From positions 1 to 22,470 of the IMG/VR virus record IMGVR_UViG_3300046000_005349: a stretch of DNA of 22,470 bases; one strand, written 5' to 3'. Shown one piece after another: positions 1 to 17,524 of the stretch. This DNA comes from a virus. Position 1 is the stretch's first letter. Every line of letters starts with the position of its first letter. Below the pieces are notes generated by a model. The model was not told the origin of the DNA. It saw only the letters and a list, made by a program, of their open reading frames with translations, and ran no database searches. Position numbers and translations under genes: made by a program.

Positions 1-189
1 CCGTTGCAGCAAAATCCGTTCAGTGTTTTGGCTAATGAATCGCGGTTGTCGGTGCGGGCGCTCGCACGCTTTTTGCGTGTGCGCCCTGATACCGTGATGC
101 ATTGGCGCAAGGGGCGGCGCGAGGTGCCGGAAGGCATATTGAATGAATTGCGGGCGTATGTGGCGGGGATGATTGACAGCGATGCTTGA
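1..189 (+). CDS. Small helix-turn-helix protein, 5' end probably outside the window
   Basis: The frame is open from the first base; the first possible start inside the window is TTG at 4, giving 61 residues, so the true start may lie upstream. The middle part (LSVRALARFLRVRPDTVMHWRKGRR) has the layout of a Cro/YdaS-type helix-turn-helix: a helix with AxxLxV, a turn, then a recognition helix with TVxxWRxGRR. Such proteins bind DNA as small phage repressors or replication accessory factors. Its stop TGA (187-189) lies just inside the next gene, whose ATG is at 182, so the two are probably translationally coupled. This suggests a regulatory or replication role, but that is inference. The DNA-binding call rests on the motif only. 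Confidence 0.6.
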   Translation, partial: PLQQNPFSVLANESRLSVRALARFLRVRPDTVMHWRKGRREVPEGILNELRAYVAGMIDSDA

Positions 190-2650
190 CGCGTTAAAAG
201 GCTACCGGCAATGGGTTGTATGGAAACTGATTCACCGACCCGGCAAGGTGAAGGCGGACAAGATACCGTTCAACGCTGCAACCGGTTATCCGGCTTCGCC
301 CGTTGATCCATCGCATTGGTGCAGCTATGACGAAGCCGTGGCCGCGATGGCGACGGGAAATTATAGCGGTGTCGGTTTCATATTTACCGCAAATGATCCT
401 TTCGTTTTTATCGACCTTGATTCATGCCGTGATACCACAACCGGCGAATGGTTGCCGGAAGCCGTAGAAATTTGCACGCGGTTTGCCGGTGCTGCGATGG
501 AAATTAGCCAAAGCGGAACGGGTGCGCACATAATTTGCAGTACGTTCGATAAATCGCTATTCGCTGCGCATTACAACAAATGGAACGGCTGGATTGAATG
601 CTATAGGTCCGGTCGCTTCGTCGCCATTGCGGGCGATGCTTGGCAAGGTGATGCGACCGTTGACCACACGGCGGCGTTGCTCGATTGGGTGCCTATGCGA
701 CCCGCTGGAAGCGTTGCGGGTGATGCGGGTGACGTTGCGACCGTTGGACGCGACCCGCGTTGGTGCGGTCCAGAAGATGACGCGGAGCTATTGCGCCGGA
801 TGATGGTGCATAAGGAACCGGACGCGGCATTGATTGCCGACCTTGCGGAAAAGGTACAGGCTGCACCGGGCGATGCGTTTTTAAAATGGCAATACGATCA
901 AGCAACGCGCGAGCGCTTGCCGTTTGAATGGTTATGGAATGCGGACCCGCGCATAGGTCAACAACATGCCGACACTTCGGGCGCACAAGGTCGCGCGTTC
1001 GATTGGAGCGCTGCCGATCAAGCGTTGATGAATCGCCTTGCATTTTGGACCGGTAAAGATTGGCCGCGAATGCAAAGGTTGTTCGGTCAATCGGCGCTCG
1101 CACAACGCGAGAAATGGCAAACGCGTCCGTACTATTCAAATTTGACAACTAGCAGCGCGTGCCGATGGGCAAAAGACGTTTATAAAGGCACGAAGGCGGA
1201 TAGGCGCGATGAAGAAAGGCGGCGGCAACAAATGCGCGCCAATGAACAAATTGGTGACGCGTTCCGCGAAGAAGATCACGTTGCACCAATTTTGACGCTT
1301 GAAGAAATGCACCAACGGCTAGTGTACGTCACGTCGATAAATTGGTTCGTGGATCGTGTGACCTTCAAGGATTACAAGGTTGACAATTGTGAATATGTTT
1401 TTGCAAGTAGCTTGACTGAAATTGATACAGGCAAGCGCGACAAAGATACGGGGCAACCGGTTTTCTCGCATGTGCCGACCGTCAAACTTTGGTTGAAAGA
1501 ACACCAAGCGCAAAAGCGCATCGTTGATAAAATCAGTTGGAAGCCGAACGGCGGAATCATTTGTGACGTACCCGAGTCATTTAACACGGGCGTCAATATG
1601 TGGCGCGGACTCGTAAAGCCGCGTTGGGCGGATTATTACCGCGACAATTTGCCCGAACGTGAACAAGCGATTGCGGGTTGGCGCGCACACCTTGAATATC
1701 TTGTGCCGTATGAAGTTGAGCGCACACGCTTTGAAAAATGGTTGGCGCACATGCTGCAACGTCCTGAGACGTTACCACATACGGCATATCTCATGTTCAC
1801 ACCGGAAGTCGGGACCGGACGCAATTGGTTGTCTAGCGTGTTGGTGCGCGTGTTGCGCGGGTACGTTGCTGCGGGCGTCGATATTCAAGAGGTGTTGGAC
1901 GGTTCTTTCAACGGTCGCTTGTCGCAAAAGTTATTGGCTATCGTGGATGAAGCAAAAGCCGGGATGCAAGATGCGAAGCGATACGCGCGCTCGGAACGTT
2001 TGAAAACTCTTGTCAATCAATCGGCGCGAGAAATCAACGTGAAGCATGGGCTTCAATCGGTTGAGCATAATTGTATGCGATGGCTGTTCTTCTCGAATCA
2101 TTCGGACGCGTTGCCGTTCGATAACAATGACCGGCGTATTGCGGTCATCGCGAACCCTACGCAACGGCATTCGGGCGGGAGTGCGTACTACTCGGCATTG
2201 TATGCGCTGTTAGATGACACGGCGTTTATATCGGCGGTGTGGGCGCACCTTATGTTCGGCGTTGACGTGAGCGACTTCAACCCCGGCGAACATGCACCAA
2301 TGAACGAAGCGAAGCGCATTGCGTTGAGTGAAATGCAAAGCGAAGGGGAACGCGCGGTGCGGGACTTATTTGCTAAATGTCCCGGCGATCTTATAACGGC
2401 GCGACAAGTGCGCGAATATATCGACCGCTATAATTCGGATCAGAGTGGAACGAAGGCGCATTCTCGTATTTTAAAAATATGGTTAGAAAAGGCGGGGTTT
2501 ATTTCAACGGCGCTTGACGTGCGAATTAACAACATGACGCAAAAAATTATAATTGTGCGCAATTATACGGCTGAAACCGTGAACCAATTGGACCGCCAAG
2601 TTATTGCAAATATCGTTGGTAAAAATGATATTTGGTTGAAATTGGAATAA
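182..2650 (+). CDS. Primase-polymerase/helicase, NrS-1 polymerase-like (DUF5906 helicase)
   Basis: 824 residues from ATG 182; an upstream in-frame TTG at 173 is possible, but the ATG overlaps the preceding gene in normal phage fashion and follows a GGCGGGG stretch. The N-terminal third has the archaeo-eukaryotic primase motifs: D78-x-D80 in a hydrophobic strand (FIDLDSC), then GAH at H116, then GRFVAIAGD near residue 145. The C-terminal part is a superfamily 3-type helicase: Walker A-like VGTGRNW around residue 547, Walker B AIVDE with D589/E590, then a sensor FFSN and a probable arginine finger in NDRR. The last 100 residues look like a winged helix. In this family one protein primes, copies and unwinds DNA. 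The Walker A lysine position holds arginine (R547). A GGGCGATTT palindrome lies directly downstream. Confidence 0.87.
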   Translation: MLDALKGYRQWVVWKLIHRPGKVKADKIPFNAATGYPASPVDPSHWCSYDEAVAAMATGNYSGVGFIFTANDPFVFIDLDSCRDTTTGEWLPEAVEICTRFAGAAMEISQSGTGAHIICSTFDKSLFAAHYNKWNGWIECYRSGRFVAIAGDAWQGDATVDHTAALLDWVPMRPAGSVAGDAGDVATVGRDPRWCGPEDDAELLRRMMVHKEPDAALIADLAEKVQAAPGDAFLKWQYDQATRERLPFEWLWNADPRIGQQHADTSGAQGRAFDWSAADQALMNRLAFWTGKDWPRMQRLFGQSALAQREKWQTRPYYSNLTTSSACRWAKDVYKGTKADRRDEERRRQQMRANEQIGDAFREEDHVAPILTLEEMHQRLVYVTSINWFVDRVTFKDYKVDNCEYVFASSLTEIDTGKRDKDTGQPVFSHVPTVKLWLKEHQAQKRIVDKISWKPNGGIICDVPESFNTGVNMWRGLVKPRWADYYRDNLPEREQAIAGWRAHLEYLVPYEVERTRFEKWLAHMLQRPETLPHTAYLMFTPEVGTGRNWLSSVLVRVLRGYVAAGVDIQEVLDGSFNGRLSQKLLAIVDEAKAGMQDAKRYARSERLKTLVNQSAREINVKHGLQSVEHNCMRWLFFSNHSDALPFDNNDRRIAVIANPTQRHSGGSAYYSALYALLDDTAFISAVWAHLMFGVDVSDFNPGEHAPMNEAKRIALSEMQSEGERAVRDLFAKCPGDLITARQVREYIDRYNSDQSGTKAHSRILKIWLEKAGFISTALDVRINNMTQKIIIVRNYTAETVNQLDRQVIANIVGKNDIWLKLE

Positions 2651-2661
2651 AACGTGAACCT

Positions 2662-2775
2662 ATCGCCCAAATCGCCCAAATCGCCCATATTGTAGACCTT
2701 TGGAATTTGAAAATTTATATAATTAGGGAAATAGCATAGGTGTGAGATATGGGCGATTTGGGCGATTTGGGCGAT
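2662..2775. repeat. 29-bp perfect inverted repeat of 9-bp iterons; candidate replication origin
   Basis: The left arm (2662-2690) and right arm (2747-2775) are exact reverse complements over 29 bp. Each arm consists of tandem copies of a 9-bp unit, GGGCGATTT on the + strand in the right arm and AAATCGCCC in the left arm, ending in ATAT next to the spacer. A further GGGCGAT follows the right arm (2776-2782). The 56-bp centre is AT-rich and contains TATATAAT. Iterons flanking an AT-rich segment next to a replication gene are the usual layout of phage and plasmid origins. A terminator is unlikely because the arms are 56 bp apart and no T tract follows. Confidence 0.6.
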
Positions 2776-2829
2776 GGGCGATAATTTTGAAAAGTGTGGA
2801 ATATGGAAAATGAAATTTAAATTGGCGTG

Positions 2830-3066: not shown

Positions 3067-3079
3067 AGGGGTGCGAGAT

Positions 3080-3499
3080 ATGCGATTGGTAATTTTAGAA
3101 AGTCCGTATGCCGGTGACGTTGAAAATAACGTTGAATATGCGCGTGCATGTTTGCGTGATTCATTGATGCGTGATGAGTCACCGTTAGCGAGTCATCTAC
3201 TTTATACGCAATGCGGCGTGTTGAACGATGACGAACCATTCGAGCGTCAACGCGGCATTGCTGCCGGTCTAGCATGGCGACGGTTCGCGCATTGCTCGGT
3301 GGTGTACTATGATCGCGGCATATCGTCCGGTATGCGCCAAGGGATCAACGCTGCAATCTTGCAAGGCATATGGGTTGAACCTCGCAGCTTGAAAGGCGCA
3401 CCCGTACCGAATGAGTTTTATGACGCGTTGAACGAAGCGCGAGCGGCGCGCGAGAAAGCGTTGCACGTTCCCGCGTGTTGGGGCGCGTGGCAACCGTGA
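3080..3499 (+). CDS. DUF7768-like protein (nucleoside deoxyribosyltransferase-like fold)
   Basis: 139 residues from ATG 3080, which has GAAGGGG eight bases upstream; the in-frame GTG at 3071 lies inside that site and is rejected. The protein carries the family pattern almost complete: ESPYAGDVENNVEYAR near the N terminus, SPLASHLLYTQ around residue 40, ERQRGIAAGLAW in the middle, and YYDRGISSGMRQGINAA before the C-terminal part. These phage and bacterial proteins have a nucleotide-binding alpha/beta fold related to DUF4406 and nucleoside 2-deoxyribosyltransferases; the substrate is not known to me. It overlaps the next gene by four bases (GTGA). Confidence 0.75.
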   Translation: MRLVILESPYAGDVENNVEYARACLRDSLMRDESPLASHLLYTQCGVLNDDEPFERQRGIAAGLAWRRFAHCSVVYYDRGISSGMRQGINAAILQGIWVEPRSLKGAPVPNEFYDALNEARAAREKALHVPACWGAWQP

Positions 3500-3903: not shown

Positions 3904-3949
3904 GGTTTGATGCGCGCAATATGCCCATAAAATAAAGGAAAAGTTCCTA

Positions 3950-3977
3950 TTGACAGGGGTGTAAAACCCGATAAGAT
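3950..3977 (+). promoter_or_regulatory. Early promoter P1, cassette family
   Basis: TTGACA (3950-3955), 16-bp spacer, TAAGAT (3972-3977). It shares TTGACAGGGGTG and the downstream GATGGGCGCACCAACCAAGCAAA with the cassettes at 4199, 4841 and 5212. A 5-bp hairpin AGGAA-AAG-TTCCT (3936-3948) replaces the AT-rich block found upstream of the other copies. Transcription would start near 3984, which excludes the in-frame ATG at 3976 as a start codon for the gene at 4018. Confidence 0.7.
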
Positions 3978-4017
3978 GGGCGCACCAACCAAGCAAACCC
4001 CTGAAAGGGAAACCACC

Positions 4018-4200
4018 ATGACCGTTAAATTCTTCATCACCGGGCGCAACGTTGAAACCGAAATGAGCTTTGCGGATATGCGCGCGAAGTTTGTTGCAGC
4101 CGGTGAGTGCAAAGGTTGGAATTGGGAAAAGCTTGAAGAAGCTTTGAACGCGGGTTTTCGTATCGTTATGCCCTTGGGTATCGAAATTTACCGGGCATAA
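4018..4200 (+). CDS. Hypothetical early protein, 60 aa
   Basis: ATG 4018 is preceded by GAAAGGGAAA. An earlier in-frame ATG (3976) lies inside the -10 region of P1 and cannot be on that promoter's transcript. The sequence has a short N-terminal beta strand (VKFFITG), an amphipathic helix (SFADMRAKFVAAG), a tryptophan-rich stretch (KGWNWEKLEEALNAG) and a final strand (IVMPLGIEIYRA). I do not recognise a family. It has its own cassette-type promoter, like two other small genes downstream, which fits an early-expressed accessory gene. Confidence 0.65.
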   Translation: MTVKFFITGRNVETEMSFADMRAKFVAAGECKGWNWEKLEEALNAGFRIVMPLGIEIYRA

Positions 4201-4275
4201 TAACTTTTCTTATTAACAGGGCTGACAACCCCGCTATAATGGCGACACCAACCAAGCAAAGGAACCGCCCGGATG
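4199..4275 (+). repeat. Promoter-leader cassette copy (77 bp)
   Basis: This copy runs from AATAACTTTTCTTATT (4199-4214), an A/T block with its own AATAA/TTATT symmetry, through the promoter and a conserved leader (ACCAACCAAGCAAAGGAACC) to the ATG at 4273. It can be aligned with 4841-4918 and 5212-5288 almost base for base, and more loosely with 3932-4020. Confidence 0.75.
4213..4240 (+). promoter_or_regulatory. Early promoter P2, cassette family
   Basis: TTAACA (4213-4218), 16-bp spacer, perfect TATAAT (4235-4240). The spacer includes GGG-CTGACAA-CCC. It drives the gene at 4273 and probably the two that follow (4418 and 4680). Confidence 0.7.
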
Positions 4276-4840: not shown

Positions 4841-4918
4841 AATAACTTTTCTTATTGACAGGGGTGACAACCCGCCTATAATGGGCGGACCAACCCAAAC
4901 AAAGGAAACGCAAAAATG
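4841..4918 (+). repeat. Promoter-leader cassette copy (78 bp)
   Basis: It begins two bases after the RMF-like stop codon with the same AATAACTTTTCTTATT block (4841-4856), and continues through promoter P3 and the leader ACCAACCCAAACAAAGGAAA to the ATG at 4916. Confidence 0.75.
4855..4882 (+). promoter_or_regulatory. Early promoter P3, cassette family
   Basis: Perfect TTGACA (4855-4860) and perfect TATAAT (4877-4882) with a 16-bp spacer. The spacer contains GGGT-GACA-ACCC, a short dyad. This is the closest to consensus of the set and should be strong with host sigma70. Confidence 0.8.
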
Positions 4919-5211: not shown

Positions 5212-5288
5212 AATAACTTTTCTTATTGACAGGGGTGTTGAGTGCGCTAGAATGGGCGCACCAACACAAACAAGGAACCGCCCCGATG
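5212..5288 (+). repeat. Promoter-leader cassette copy (77 bp)
   Basis: The AATAACTTTTCTTATT block (5212-5227), TTGACAGGGGTG and the leader GGGCGCACCAACACAAACAAGGAACC are conserved; only the inner spacer (TTGAGTGCGC) differs from the other copies. It ends at the ATG at 5286. Confidence 0.75.
5226..5253 (+). promoter_or_regulatory. Early promoter P4, cassette family
   Basis: TTGACA (5226-5231), 16-bp spacer, TAGAAT (5248-5253). It lacks the GGG...CCC dyad of P1-P3, so a regulator reading that dyad would not act here. It serves the genes at 5286, 5476 and 5744, which follow with short gaps. Confidence 0.7.
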
Positions 5289-7116: not shown

Positions 7117-8741
7117 CCGCCGTTGCTTGGCCTCCCGATTATCTTTCCGTTTGGTCAATGCGTCAAACGCGGCTCGGTGTGCTGCGATCAATGCCGGAAT
7201 TATGGGCGGGCGCATTCGAGCATTACCGAACACACCCCGTCGATTTTATAAACGATTGGTGCGATACATACGATCCACGGAACGCGGGCCGCGACAAGCC
7301 TTCATATATGCCGTTCATTCTGTTTCCGCGACAGGTGACGTTGGTTGCCTTCTTACAGGCATGTTTAAGCGGTGAGGAATCCGGCCTAGTTGAGAAATGC
7401 CGCGATATGGGCGCGACTTGGGTATGCGCGGCGTTTAGCGTTTGGCTATGGCGGTTCTATCCCGGCGCGGCGGTTGGTTGGGGATCACGTAAGGAACAGT
7501 TGGTTGATAAATTAGGCGACCCGGATTCGATATTTGAAAAGATGCGGATACTTGTTCGCCGGTTGCCGCGCGAATTTTGGCCGCGTGGTTTTGTTGAGTC
7601 CGACCATATGGCTTATATGCGTCTTGTAAATCCCGAAACGGGCGCAACCATCACGGGCGAAGCGGGCGACAACATCGGGCGCGGCGGACGCAAGCTGATT
7701 TATTTTAAAGATGAATCCGCACACTATGAGCGACCGGAAAAAATTGAAGCGTCATTGTCAGACAACACGCGCGTTCAAATTGACATTTCGAGCGTCAACG
7801 GTTTGGGCAATGTGTTCCATCGGAAGCGCGAAGCGGGCGAAGAATGGAACAGCGGACCCGCGTTGAAAGGTAAGACGAACGTTTTCATTATGGATTGGCG
7901 CGACCATCCCGAAAAAAATGAAGCGTGGTATATGTCGCGCAAAAAGAAAGCGGAAGCGGACGGGCTTTATCATATTTTTGCGCAAGAGGTTGACCGAAAT
8001 TATGCGGCGGCGGTTGATGGCGTTATCATTCCCGCCGAATGGGTCAACGCTGCGATTGACGCGCATGTGAAATTGAATTTTGAAGCAACCGGGCAACACG
8101 TTGCAGGGTTGGACGTTGCAGACGAAGGCGGCGACCGTAATGCGCTCGCGCTGCGCAAGGGTGCCTTGCTTGTCAATTTGGATGATTGGGCCGAAGGCGA
8201 TACAGGACAAACTACGCGGCGCGCGGTTGGTATGTGCGAGGGTATTGGACCGGTCGCATTGCAATACGATCCAATCGGCGTCGGTGCGGGCGTGAAGTCC
8301 GAAGCAAACCGATTGAAGGCGGAAGGATTATTGAAGCCGGGAATTATTTTTGTTCCTTGGTGGGCGGGAGCTAACCCGCAAGACCCGGATGGGCATGTTA
8401 TTCCGCGTGACAAAGATACACCGTTAAACAAAGATTTTTATTCCAACTTGAAGGCGCAAGGTTGGTGGGAATTGCGTTTGCGATTTGAGCGCACCTATCG
8501 CGCCGTCACTGAGGGAATCACTTATTCGCCGGATGAATTAATTAGCATTCCCTCGCATCTTCCAAAGCTGCGACAATTGCAAAAAGAATTGAGCCAAGCG
8601 ACGGCGGGACGCTCAACCGGTGCAATGAAATTGGTAGTAAACAAAGCGCCATCCGGCACGCGCTCGCCTAACCTTGCCGATTCCGTGGTGATGGCGTATT
8701 ATCCGCTAATTGCAAAGCTTGCGACCGTTCGCATGTGGTAA
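7113..8741 (+). CDS. terL: Terminase large subunit (ATPase/nuclease)
   Basis: 542 residues from ATG 7113, overlapping the terS stop by four bases. ATPase: Walker A-like RDMGATW at 97-103, a variant common in one branch of phage TerL proteins that lacks the GKS/T ending; Walker B YFKDE with D200/E201. Nuclease (RNase H fold): D334 in GLDVADEGGD, D386 in YDPIGVGAG, and D523 in NLADSVVMAYY give the acidic triad that binds two metals. The enzyme cuts concatemeric DNA and pumps it into the prohead through the portal. Length and motif spacing are normal, with no sign of damage. Confidence 0.93.
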   Translation: MTAVAWPPDYLSVWSMRQTRLGVLRSMPELWAGAFEHYRTHPVDFINDWCDTYDPRNAGRDKPSYMPFILFPRQVTLVAFLQACLSGEESGLVEKCRDMGATWVCAAFSVWLWRFYPGAAVGWGSRKEQLVDKLGDPDSIFEKMRILVRRLPREFWPRGFVESDHMAYMRLVNPETGATITGEAGDNIGRGGRKLIYFKDESAHYERPEKIEASLSDNTRVQIDISSVNGLGNVFHRKREAGEEWNSGPALKGKTNVFIMDWRDHPEKNEAWYMSRKKKAEADGLYHIFAQEVDRNYAAAVDGVIIPAEWVNAAIDAHVKLNFEATGQHVAGLDVADEGGDRNALALRKGALLVNLDDWAEGDTGQTTRRAVGMCEGIGPVALQYDPIGVGAGVKSEANRLKAEGLLKPGIIFVPWWAGANPQDPDGHVIPRDKDTPLNKDFYSNLKAQGWWELRLRFERTYRAVTEGITYSPDELISIPSHLPKLRQLQKELSQATAGRSTGAMKLVVNKAPSGTRSPNLADSVVMAYYPLIAKLATVRMW

Positions 8742-8753
8742 AAGGATTCTTCA

Positions 8754-8795
8754 ATGCGATATTTCGTTGACGTTCGGAATGCACGGACCCCGTGA
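8754..8795 (+). CDS. Tiny ORF (13 aa) after terL, may be first half of a split gene
   Basis: ATG 8754 has a good ribosome binding site (AAAGGA at 8741-8746) and encodes MRYFVDVRNARTP before TGA at 8793-8795. The stop overlaps the GTG of the next tiny ORF (GTGA). The junction holds a CCCC run (8788-8791), where a -1 slip would join the two into one protein of 43 residues. Either a translated leader/coupled mini-gene or the 5' part of a frameshifted gene. Confidence 0.4.
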   Translation: MRYFVDVRNARTP

Positions 8796-8884
8796 TAAAA
8801 TTCGGCGCGGTCACAAGCGTTGGGCAAAATTTGTTTGAAGAAGTAATTTTGCGCGTGCGCGCCGATCCATTTGGAACCACATAA
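8792..8884 (+). CDS. Tiny ORF (30 aa) before portal, may be second half of a split gene
   Basis: GTG 8792 to TAA 8884 encodes a well-composed short sequence (IKFGAVTSVGQNLFEEVILRVRADPFGTT) with a clear amphipathic helix in the middle. It begins inside the stop of the upstream tiny ORF and ends one base before the portal ATG, so it fills the space neatly. It has no ribosome binding site of its own, so it would rely on reinitiation or on a -1 frameshift from 8754. No family is recognised. Confidence 0.4.
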   Translation: MIKFGAVTSVGQNLFEEVILRVRADPFGTT

Positions 8885-8885
8885 A

Positions 8886-10199
8886 ATGAAATCCATTATC
8901 AACGCGCAACGCAGCTTGCCGAATTTGTTTCCCGGCTATTTCAGCGGTGGAAGTACGAAGCATGACCATGCGACCGATTACGGTTGGCCGGTGTCGCTCG
9001 AATTTGACCAACTCTATCGCATGTACGCGCGCAACGGTTTGGCGGCGGCGGCTGCGGATCGTTTGAGTCTGCGCACTTGGAAAACGTTGCCGGAATTTAT
9101 GGAAACGGATGCACCGAAAGAAAACAAAGGTGAATCCGATTTGCGGCAACGCTTGGAAGATATACGCGGTTGGCAAGCGCTCATTGAAACCGACTTGCGC
9201 GCGTTCGTCGGTGGATACGCGGGCGCGATCTTGCGTGTTGCTGACAACAAACCTTTCAACCAACCCGTTGACCGTGTTGCGGGCGGTGTTGATGGGATTG
9301 TTGAGATTGTTCCCGCGTGGCGTGGTCAAATCTTTGTCAAGACTTGGAACGAAGATACATCATCGGAAAATTACGGGCGTCCGGTCATGTACGAATTTCG
9401 CGAAAGTGCTGTTCCGAATAAGAACGCGGGAAACAACGCACCGCAAAACCGCACGTTTGATTTGCACCCGGATAGATTGCTGTTGTGGTCCGCCGATGGA
9501 ACAGTGTTCGCGCGCTCAAATCTTGAAGCGGGCTATAACAGTTTAATCGACGTTGAAAAAATTGTTGGCGCGGGCGGTGAAGGGTTTTGGAAAAATGCAA
9601 AGTCCGCACCGGTACTGACAGCCGATGAAACGTTTGACCCGGCTTCAATGGCGGCTTCGCTCGGTGTGTCGCAAGATATGATTAAAGAGGCGATGAGCGA
9701 ACGCGTTGAAGATTGGCAAAAGGGTTTTGATAAACTGCTAATGTTGCAAGGTATCAAAGCTGAAACGCTCGGCGTGACTCTCCCGCAACCGAACGAATTT
9801 TTTATGATGGCCGCGAATATGTTTGCCGCGTCGGTATCAATGCCGGTGCGCGTTCTTATCGGCAATCAAACGGGCGAACGCGCGTCAACAGAAGATCAAA
9901 CAGACTTCAATCAAACGTGCATGGCACGGCGGGAACGCGTGATTGTGCCGATGTTGCGCGAATTATTGAACCGGCTAGAAAAATGGGGTATTATCCCCGA
10001 ACGTGATTGGCTCATTGGGTGGGAAAGCCTCTTGGATTCATCGCCTTCGGAAAAGATGACGCGCGCAAGCGGCATGGCCGAAATCAACGCGAAGTCACAA
10101 GGCGCGATGGGCGACGGCGAACCGGCATTCTCGATTGATGAAATCCGCGCAGAAGTTGGTATGGCACCGCGCGATGAAGTTGGGGTAACAGATGAATAA
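8886..10199 (+). CDS. Portal protein (DUF1073-like)
   Basis: 437 residues from ATG 8886, with GGAACC eight bases upstream; an in-frame TTG at 8871 overlaps that site. The order and content are those of a dodecameric portal: N-terminal LEFDQLYRMYARNGLAAAAADRLSLRTWKTLP (the usual opening with a residue run for the wing), a wing/stem beta region, KIVGAGGEGFWKNA before the long helix, PVRVLIGNQTGERASTEDQTDFNQ in the crown-stem region, and a helical end. The pattern fits the DUF1073 branch, which some databases label Acb1-like; I see no reason to call it an anti-CBASS enzyme. The portal forms the DNA entry channel and starts prohead assembly. Confidence 0.85.
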   Translation: MKSIINAQRSLPNLFPGYFSGGSTKHDHATDYGWPVSLEFDQLYRMYARNGLAAAAADRLSLRTWKTLPEFMETDAPKENKGESDLRQRLEDIRGWQALIETDLRAFVGGYAGAILRVADNKPFNQPVDRVAGGVDGIVEIVPAWRGQIFVKTWNEDTSSENYGRPVMYEFRESAVPNKNAGNNAPQNRTFDLHPDRLLLWSADGTVFARSNLEAGYNSLIDVEKIVGAGGEGFWKNAKSAPVLTADETFDPASMAASLGVSQDMIKEAMSERVEDWQKGFDKLLMLQGIKAETLGVTLPQPNEFFMMAANMFAASVSMPVRVLIGNQTGERASTEDQTDFNQTCMARRERVIVPMLRELLNRLEKWGIIPERDWLIGWESLLDSSPSEKMTRASGMAEINAKSQGAMGDGEPAFSIDEIRAEVGMAPRDEVGVTDE

Positions 10200-14082: not shown

Positions 14083-15047
14083 TGGCGACCACATTTGACA
14101 CGCTATTGGGAAAATACGGACCCGAAATTGCGCGGGCGTATCGGCGTGTCATTGCGACAGCGAAAAAATCAATCAATGAGCAAGTGCTGATTGACGCAAT
14201 CGACGCGCGCAATATTTCCGCGATGGTTGAAGCGCTCGGATTGACCGAAGCGCAAATCTTCCCGCTAACCGAAGCCATCCGGTCAAGCTATGTCGGTTCC
14301 GGTATGGCCGTTGGTGAGGCAATAAGGGGCGGCACGTTCGGTTTCTCAGCGCTGCAACCACGGGCGATGCGTTGGATTGAACAGACTACCGCGCGCCTTG
14401 TGCAAGGCATTCAAGAGCAATCGCGCGAAATGGTAACGGACGTTGTGCGACAGGGCGTTATTGAAGGGCGTTCAACGGCTGCAATGGCTCGCGATATTTT
14501 GGGGCAAGGTCGCGACCGCATCGGCTCGCGCGTTGGTATCACGGTGCAGCAATCGCAATACGTTGACAACATGCGAACCGATTTGGAAAATTTGAGTGAG
14601 CGTTATTTTACGCGCGCCCAACGTGACCGGCGATTTGATGCGAGCGTGCGCGCGGCGATCAAGAGCGGTAAGCCATTATCGGAATCGGACGTTGCAAAAA
14701 TCACCGCGCGTTATGCGGAGCGGTTTGAAAAATATCGTGCGACCGATATTGCGCGACAGGAAACGCGGGCGGCGGTGGCGTCGGGTCAAGCGGAGGGATA
14801 TTTCCAGCTTCAAGAAAGTCCCGATGTTGAGCGCGTCACTGTTCGTTGGCAACACAACACCGGAAGTCAGAAAGAATTTCGCGAAGATCACGAACGCTTT
14901 GACGGTGAGATTCACGATCTAGGCGAACCGTGGATAATGGATGATGGAAGCGCGATGCTTTACCCGCATGACCCAACGGGCGGACCCGCGCAAAATGCAA
15001 ACTGCCGTTGCTCGCCTTTCTTCCGTCCGATCTTGAAGGCTGAATAA
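14082..15047 (+). CDS. Phage Mu F-like minor head protein
   Basis: 321 residues, starting in TAATG with the previous stop. The C-terminal domain is the Mu F/SPP1 gp7 signature: DIARQETRAAVASGQAEGYFQ, then VRWQHN, EDHERFDGEIHDLGEPW, YPHDPTGGPAQNANCRCSPFF. The His/Asp and CRC residues are conserved in the family and probably bind metal. The N-terminal part is helical. Family members enter the capsid with the portal and are packaged or ejected. Unusually, the gene lies after the connector genes and not next to the portal gene. Confidence 0.87.
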   Translation: MATTFDTLLGKYGPEIARAYRRVIATAKKSINEQVLIDAIDARNISAMVEALGLTEAQIFPLTEAIRSSYVGSGMAVGEAIRGGTFGFSALQPRAMRWIEQTTARLVQGIQEQSREMVTDVVRQGVIEGRSTAAMARDILGQGRDRIGSRVGITVQQSQYVDNMRTDLENLSERYFTRAQRDRRFDASVRAAIKSGKPLSESDVAKITARYAERFEKYRATDIARQETRAAVASGQAEGYFQLQESPDVERVTVRWQHNTGSQKEFREDHERFDGEIHDLGEPWIMDDGSAMLYPHDPTGGPAQNANCRCSPFFRPILKAE

Positions 15048-16700: not shown

Positions 16701-17186
16701 ATGGACTTTTCAAAACTTGATTCGCGCACCGCTGCGGAAAAACCGCAACAGGTTCATTTGCGCAACCCGGCGACCGGCGAATATATCATGGACGGCGACA
16801 AGCCTTGCGTGGTGTTGGTTGTCGGTTCTCATTCGCGTTCGGTGCAAGCCGGTATCCTTGATGATGCTCGCGCAAAATTGAACGCGTCAAAGGGTAGGAA
16901 AAAAACCAAAGACGAACAAGCGAACGCGCTTGCCGATGTTCAAAAGACATTGGTTGAAGGTGCAACGCGCGTCATTCGTGGTTTCGTGAATATCTCGCGC
17001 GGTGATGTTCCGTTGACCACAAGTGCGGACGATCTTGCGTGGTTCCTTGACTTAAATTTTCTTTCGGTCAAATCGCTCATGGCGACCGGCGAAGATGATG
17101 AATCGGACGTGTGGCGCGGTGATAGCTTCGCGCAGCAAATTTTAAAAGCGTCGAACGATGCGGGCGCTTACTTGGGAAACGCATAG
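16701..17186 (+). CDS. Tail assembly chaperone, short form (gpG-like)
   Basis: 161 residues from ATG 16701, which follows CAGGAGC. The protein is charged and helical: DFSKLDSRTAAEKPQQVHLRNPATGEYIMDG, SVQAGILDDARAKLNASKGRKKTKDEQ, TLVEGATRVIRGFVNISRGDVPLTTSADDLAWFLD, SDVWRGDSFAQQILKASNDAGAYLGN. It fits the lambda gpG family: sits before the tape measure gene, binds it during assembly and is absent from the virion. A GGGAAAC slippery site at 17174 lies one codon before its TAG stop and allows the long form. Confidence 0.8.
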   Translation: MDFSKLDSRTAAEKPQQVHLRNPATGEYIMDGDKPCVVLVVGSHSRSVQAGILDDARAKLNASKGRKKTKDEQANALADVQKTLVEGATRVIRGFVNISRGDVPLTTSADDLAWFLDLNFLSVKSLMATGEDDESDVWRGDSFAQQILKASNDAGAYLGNA

Positions 17187-17524
17187 CCGACCTGATTCGT
17201 TACGCGGCTCAGGTTGGCTATCTTACAACGGTTCCGAAAGAAGCGAAACAAAGTCGCGCGGAGGAAATGGGAATTGAATACCCGAAACCGCCCGAAGGAA
17301 TACACCTTGTTCAAGCAATCATTGAATTGGGATGGTGTGCGACTAACGGCGTCGGTATGTGCGTGCTACCTTGGGCCGAAATTAAGTCATACGCGGACGC
17401 AACCGAAACCCTAAGCGAACCTTGGGAATTTCGGTGCGTTCGCGAAATGAGCGCGGCATATGTGACCGAACGAAACCACGATGAAGTTTTGCGGATTGCA
17501 CCTTATGACAGGACAAAAAAATAA
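16701..17524 (+). CDS. Tail assembly chaperone, long form (gpGT-like) via -1 frameshift
   Basis: Slippage on GGGAAAC (17174-17180) moves the ribosome from the 16701 frame into the -1 frame, which is open from 17126 to TAA 17522-17524. The fusion would have about 274 residues: 160 from the first frame and 114 from the second (RIADLIRYAAQVGYLTTVPKEAKQ..., EPWEFRCVREMSAAYVTER). The second segment has the W-E....mS.aYv pattern of T-domains. An ATG at 17267 exists in that frame but is three bases after a weak GGAGG, so it is probably not the main start. In lambda and many other tailed phages the ratio of short to long form is fixed by the slip. Confidence 0.72.
17141..17147 (+). other. Second possible slippery heptamer TTTAAAA
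   Basis: In the chaperone frame the codons read TTA AAA after a T, so T TTA AAA fits the X XXY YYZ pattern. It lies inside the region where the -1 frame is open (17126-17186) but is further from the stop and lacks a clear stem-loop at the normal distance. It is the less favoured site. Confidence 0.35.
17174..17221 (+). other. -1 programmed frameshift site: GGGAAAC plus 13-bp stem-loop
   Basis: G GGA AAC at 17174-17180 matches X XXY YYZ in the reading frame of the chaperone gene. Two bases downstream a stem starts: 17183-17195 pairs with 17209-17221 over 13 bp, including one G-U pair, around a 13-base loop. The stem contains the TAG stop (17184-17186). The short 2-base spacer would lengthen to about 5 bases if the first three A-T pairs breathe, as in many stimulators. 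Confidence 0.75.

Follow-up and report, generated by a model that had tools for sequence, protein, structure and literature searches.

How does a phage that encodes its own primase-polymerase select the place where its DNA synthesis begins? The question is raised by a linear viral fragment from IMG/VR, 22,470 bases long (called the window here, meaning the whole stretch of DNA that was analysed), in which a gene for an NrS-1-like primase-polymerase is followed directly by an inverted array of short repeats and, further downstream, by genes for terminase, portal and tape measure. The reading developed below is that the array is the replication origin of the phage and is recognised, through the steps proposed further on, by the protein encoded just before it. 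We give this reading a probability of about 85%. The coordinates of the features are collected in Table 1.

Table 1. Features of the polymerase gene and the adjoining inverted array (positions in the window)
Feature	Position	Strand	Remarks
Small HTH protein gene	1..189	+	5' end beyond the window; stop overlaps polymerase start
NrS-1-like primase-polymerase	182..2650	+	Helix-bundle, DUF5906/SF3-type helicase, C-terminal winged helix
Helix-bundle domain PF22763	1007..1186	+	Pfam match
DUF5906 helicase domain PF19263	1808..2137	+	Pfam match
Predicted C-terminal winged helix	2306..2554	+	AlphaFold2 model
Wing hairpin	2501-2554	+	MTQ at 2534-2542 begins its second strand
Left iteron arm	2662-2690	-	Three 9-bp units; G-rich strand is minus
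AT-rich centre	2691-2746	.	Candidate melting region; 30% G+C
Right iteron arm	2747-2775	+	Three 9-bp units; exact reverse complement of left arm
Extra GGGCGAT core	2776-2782	+	Directly after right arm

The left arm reads ATCGCCCAAATCGCCCAAATCGCCCATAT, and both arms are composed of GGGCGATTT units at a 9-bp step, each arm containing three GGGCGAT cores with the same spacing. The centre is 56 bp long, and its G+C content of 30%, compared with 51.8% for the window, places it in the lowest 0.6% of all 56-mers of the window. An earlier note on this DNA had described a perfect 29-bp inverted repeat made of 9-bp units around an AT-rich 56-bp centre, and all of this is confirmed in the letters. The distance from the polymerase stop, given there as ten bases, is actually 11 bp, because the stop codon occupies 2648-2650. 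With up to three mismatches, GGGCGATTTGGGCGAT is found six times in the window, five times within the array, where 0.47 occurrences are expected, and none of 100 shuffled sequences reaches six. Four of the five window copies of TTTGGGCG also lie inside the array. A strict detector, defined by a tandem 6-mer and its inverted tandem with the same step within 260 bases, returns the array as its sole match in the window and returns zero arrays in 2.06 Mb of Markov background; this strict detection overlooks degenerate arrays.

The polymerase start is best set at ATG 182, overlapping the stop of the HTH gene, which results in a protein of 822 aa. The HTH gene is an ORF open at the left edge of the window and has weak HTH matches in Pfam and PHROGs. 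The polymerase matches the Pfam families NrS1-1_pol-like_HBD (PF22763) at 6.5e-14, above the cut-off, and DUF5906 at 4.5e-16. Its best solved relatives are the NrS-1 polymerase chains 7rr3 and 6a9w (E ~1e-33; 3.8e-33 for 7rr3 with phmmer), and the helicase region also matches 6k9c/6k9e (2e-6). In its AEP PrimPol domain, the motifs FIDLD and H fall on their NrS-1 counterparts in the alignment, and the protein is of the kind that the earlier note had named, with D-x-D and H at the stated places. In relatives, the helix-bundle domain binds the primase recognition site (PMC8718748). The AlphaFold2 model of the C-terminal 132 residues has the H-E-H-H-E-E order of a winged helix (pLDDT 76). When this model is aligned with VIA-align, the matches have Z of 5-7 and are mostly assorted winged-helix domains, which is a common arrangement; Foldseek with the same model gave nothing under E 0.001, and a search of phage records with the C-terminal 161 aa gave no match. 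The initiator is predicted, at moderate confidence, to carry a C-terminal DNA-binding domain.

Three close relatives, with proteins 71-82% identical to that of the window, were found in viral contigs, and each has an inverted array or palindrome at the same position. L001 (80% aa identity) has three copies of TGGGCGTAA with perfect 24-bp arms, L002 (71%) has three copies of GGGTTACnC, and L003 (82%) has perfect 22-bp palindromic arms in which the tandem units are degenerate. An inverted array with the unit AGTGGCGCA is present in the more distant L020 (31%), and the array unit of L004 is GGGTTCCTG. An exact search of viral contigs with the window's own repeat gave no matches, a null result which shows that the unit is not shared among these contigs and says nothing about the absence of the feature elsewhere. 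Among these relatives, the array is conserved in layout and not in sequence. The persistence of position and architecture in the near relatives and in NrS-1, in spite of the differing units, supports an origin that is read by the upstream protein. The condition that would, by the earlier note, refute its reading, namely relatives with the polymerase but no iterons nearby, applies to many distant relatives, mostly of lytic type, and not to the near ones.

Phage NrS-1 itself has an inverted array at 17052-17270, directly 3' of its polymerase gene. All seven copies of GGTTACACTTT in its 37-kb genome lie within 17052-17330, in both orientations, and the sole genome copy of TTTGGTTA, the published start site of NrS-1 polymerase (PMC8718748), sits in this array. 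The structure paper names the 8-nt site as a possible origin; the repeats are not mentioned there. The likeness to the window includes the closest solved relative of the enzyme, 3' inverted iterons, and a regulator gene that overlaps the polymerase start (CII-like in NrS-1, at 14895-14898), as the small HTH gene does in the window. The unit GGTTACACTTT, the step of ~12 and the more dispersed array are features of NrS-1's own, and the C-terminal 'tail' of its polymerase belongs to Pfam family PF22762, unlike that of the window protein. L039, whose protein is 68% identical to NrS-1 polymerase, has GGTAACACTTT at the same place.

How general this layout is was assessed in 47 distinct loci from Pseudomonadota genomes that contain DUF5906 or P4-family primases with complete 3' ends. 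A strict array lies between -40 and +300 of the stop in 20 of them, compared with five matches in the 149 kb of these loci outside that interval, making strict inverted iterons ~37-fold denser per kb after the gene than elsewhere. The period is 9 in 15 of these 20 loci. With a looser score, 25 of the 47 loci are positive, compared with 4 of 47 in-gene controls. At the matching position, Lactobacillus phage A2 carries an annotated rep_origin. The survey suggests that an array after DUF5906/P4-type primases is common. There is no array after the gene in KP1, B2, R3, AXL_3, the Agrobacterium phages Milano, OLIVR4 and 7-7-1, HMSP1 and L015-L019, which are distant and share the PrimPol-HBD part, nor in two of the four genome loci retrieved by way of the helix-bundle domain. 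In many origins (L049, L060, L064, L073, L075, L076, L098 and family A loci such as L112-L141), and not in the window, an alternating purine-pyrimidine centre, for example TATACGCGCGTGCGCG, replaces the plain AT-rich stretch.

Which part of the protein recognises the units may be deduced from a family that is related to that of the window and is not its own, namely 70 distinct proteins related to the primase of E. coli phage 606R2. The cores of their arrays include GGTGAC, GGTGGC, GGTAAC, GGTGTC, GGTTAC, GTTGTC, GTGGTC, GGTACA, GGTTCC and GGGACA. In two subfamilies, with 451 and 180 variable columns, the columns most informative on the core are residues of the C-terminal wing. When a partial Mantel test controls for the rest of the protein, core and wing correlate at r = 0.73 and 0.81 (p = 2e-4) in the two subfamilies; when it controls for the wing, the correlation of the core with the rest is ~0 or negative. 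In the first subfamily, the tail between the wing and the array does not track the core. Among the 70 proteins, 12 of 13 recurrent wing tripeptides occur with a single core, and H(core|wing) is 0.04 bits compared with 1.67 when shuffled, an association that is inflated because wing and array are closely linked, ~150-250 bp apart. The core changes 21 times on the tree of residues 1-690, where the minimum is 8. The C-terminus of this family is modelled with low confidence (pLDDT 56); in the model, the residues that covary most strongly lie on a hairpin of two strands.

Pairs of loci from the 606R2 family point in the same direction. L190 and L193 are 98.6% identical in the DNA of the body and 97% in the tail, but 68% in the HTH-wing and 71% in the iteron region. 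Conversely, the bodies of L198 and L206 are 67% identical in DNA, whereas HTH-wing, tail and array are 91-97% identical, an apparent cassette exchange. Together, these patterns argue strongly, if indirectly, for reading of the iterons by the wing and for movement of wing and array as one cassette. The tripeptide KVL, the one exception, is associated with a mixed array of two units. Such arrays of GGTTAC and GGATAC, with this one wing type, are found 3' of the primase gene in L224, L236 and L244; they are perhaps caught in the middle of a change of specificity.

In the window's four-member family, the wing and unit pairs are MTQ with GGGCG (window and L001), VAH with GGGTTAC (L002) and YTQ with mixed units (L003), and these few members agree with recognition of the iterons by the wing. 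L003 also has a free-standing 109-aa ORF (8623-8952) right after its array. It resembles the C-terminal winged helix of the primase, being 33% identical to the window's C-terminal domain over 81 residues, and might compete with, or regulate, binding to the origin. The literature searched, with partial coverage, yielded no description of a correspondence between wing and iteron, which is apparently undescribed so far and would make the specificity of an origin predictable from sequence.

The layout of the origin is already known from PICI/SaPI islands and, under the name of a stem-loop, from plasmid pRN1, and these precedents place the window in a known kind of origin. In PICI/SaPI elements, the origin is situated just 3' of the initiator gene, with two iteron sets flanking an AT-rich region (PMC6092414). 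The C-terminal domain of SaPI Rep recognises the iterons just 3' of its gene, and the isolated C-terminal domain of SCCmec Cch2 binds the putative origin (PMC7581432). The window shares with these elements the position 3' of the initiator gene, the two iteron sets and the AT-rich stretch between them. It differs in having an NrS-1-like primase-polymerase with a helix-bundle and a different iteron sequence, and it belongs not to a satellite but to a phage, whose genome encodes a terminase, a portal and a tape measure of its own.

Behind ORF904, the PrimPol-helicase gene of pRN1, lies a stem-loop of 100 bp (21-nt stem, 58-nt loop). Together with the replication operon, this element is necessary and sufficient as the origin; the authors describe it as a stem-loop and state that pRN1 lacks any iteron structure (PMC4234260). 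Its arms nevertheless contain TGTCCA twice at a 9-bp step, and the strict detector picks this array up. ORF904 resembles the window protein in the combination of PrimPol, helix bundle, SF3 helicase and C-terminal winged helix, and the inverted repeat, ~54 bp after the stop, resembles the window's array in its 21-bp arms, AT-rich loop and 9-bp units. The helicase of ORF904, however, is of the P4/D5 family with a Pox_D5 C-terminal domain and not of the DUF5906 family. The alpha protein of P4 is likewise a primase-helicase with a C-terminal winged helix, which binds the ori/crr iterons, but its primase is of the TOPRIM type (summarised in PMC4234260). The PICI iterons, the pRN1 stem-loop and the NrS-1 start site, which were described separately, are united here as one layout. 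The self-contained pair of polymerase and origin that the earlier note envisaged is well supported by the relatives, by NrS-1 itself and by these known systems, and NrS-1-like self-priming polymerases, NrS-1 included, gain a concrete candidate origin beside their gene.

The following sequence of events is proposed for initiation at the array. The C-terminal winged helix would bind the 9-bp units as duplex DNA with the wing hairpin reading the core, as the covariation in the related family suggests. Two oppositely oriented groups of protein molecules would then assemble, one on each arm. Their helicase domains may form hexamers and melt the AT-rich centre, by analogy with PICI/SaPI and pRN1. 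The PrimPol and helix-bundle domains would then start DNA synthesis without a primer on the exposed single strands, as expected from the biochemistry of NrS-1 polymerase; the start could be at the iterons, in the centre or elsewhere. As the protein and its site are adjacent, wing and iterons could be exchanged together as a specificity cassette.

The units might also be, chiefly, templates for a primer-free start by PrimPol, with TTTGG as the start signal on each strand and hence a bidirectional start, as the earlier note had suggested. The location of NrS-1's only TTTGGTTA inside its array, the concentration of TTTGGGCG in that of the window, and the start of the SCCmec primase-polymerase within the iterons of its putative origin (PMC7581432) all favour this explanation, and TTTGG is plausible as a start template in NrS-1. 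However, TTTGG is missing from the units of L001, L002 and L003, and TTTGGTTA is absent from the 10 kb around the gene of L039. The site choice of NrS-1 polymerase is loose, as GTGA/GTGG are also used, even better (PMC8718748). A central TTTGGAA, considered as a possible conserved start motif for the primase, is present in the window and L003, roughly in L002, and absent from L001 and L039. The bidirectional start was deduced from the symmetry of the arms, and in the proposed check, cumulative GC skew keeps its sign across the array, be it that of the window, of the two more complete relatives L001 and L003, or of NrS-1; the skew is uninformative here because it follows gene orientation. The iterons match the wing of the C-terminal winged helix most clearly, and not the primase domain. 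A role chiefly as start templates is unlikely. A dual use is a tentative possibility: the wing would read the duplex units by a short, nearly deterministic code, and the melted units would then serve as templates for the primer-free start. If this were true, one repeat would set both the choice of origin and the first nucleotide.

Recognition of a hairpin or cruciform with a 29-bp stem and a 56-nt loop, the repeats within the arms being incidental, would account for the folding of the single strands, which is far better than that of shuffles (z -10.9 and -12.3 in the window, -11.3 in L001, -7.8 in L002), for the perfect 22-bp palindrome kept in L003 despite its degenerate tandem units, and for the requirement of pRN1 for its intact 100-bp stem-loop, which is sufficient besides the replication operon (PMC4234260). 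Yet a long palindrome is missing from NrS-1, A2, 606R2, L021 and L004, whose iterons still occur in both orientations (the longest perfect arms are 11-18 bp and spread), units of unrelated sequence mostly keep a 9-bp step, and the wing residues in the 606R2 family are tracked by the letters of the core and not by the stem. The pRN1 stem itself has two TGTCCA units per arm at this step. Recognition of the hairpin as such is quite improbable. An element acting in transcription or on mRNA (a terminator, a processing hairpin, or an operator where a repressor of the following genes binds) would suit the location, which is flanked by two genes of the same orientation, and the strong RNA hairpin that the sequence would form. 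The reading as a terminator was rejected, as there is no T-run and no terminator-like site at the array, and pRN1 can do without the terminator next to its stem-loop but not without the stem-loop itself (PMC4234260). The array, moreover, follows the primase gene irrespective of what lies beyond it, and its core varies with the wing of the primase. Such elements are very unlikely here, and the array is better explained as an origin read by the upstream protein.

Two further observations concern the region downstream of the array. A DUF7768 / nucleoside 2-deoxyribosyltransferase-like gene lies near the origin (3071-3499) and is also the next gene in L001. Further on, the window contains four 77-nt repeats (3936-4012, 4199-4275, 4841-4917 and 5212-5288), in every one of which a sigma-70 promoter close to consensus (TTGACA..TATAAT-like) and a leader common to all four precede a small ORF. 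By these putative signals, the four repeats are repeated early-promoter cassettes.
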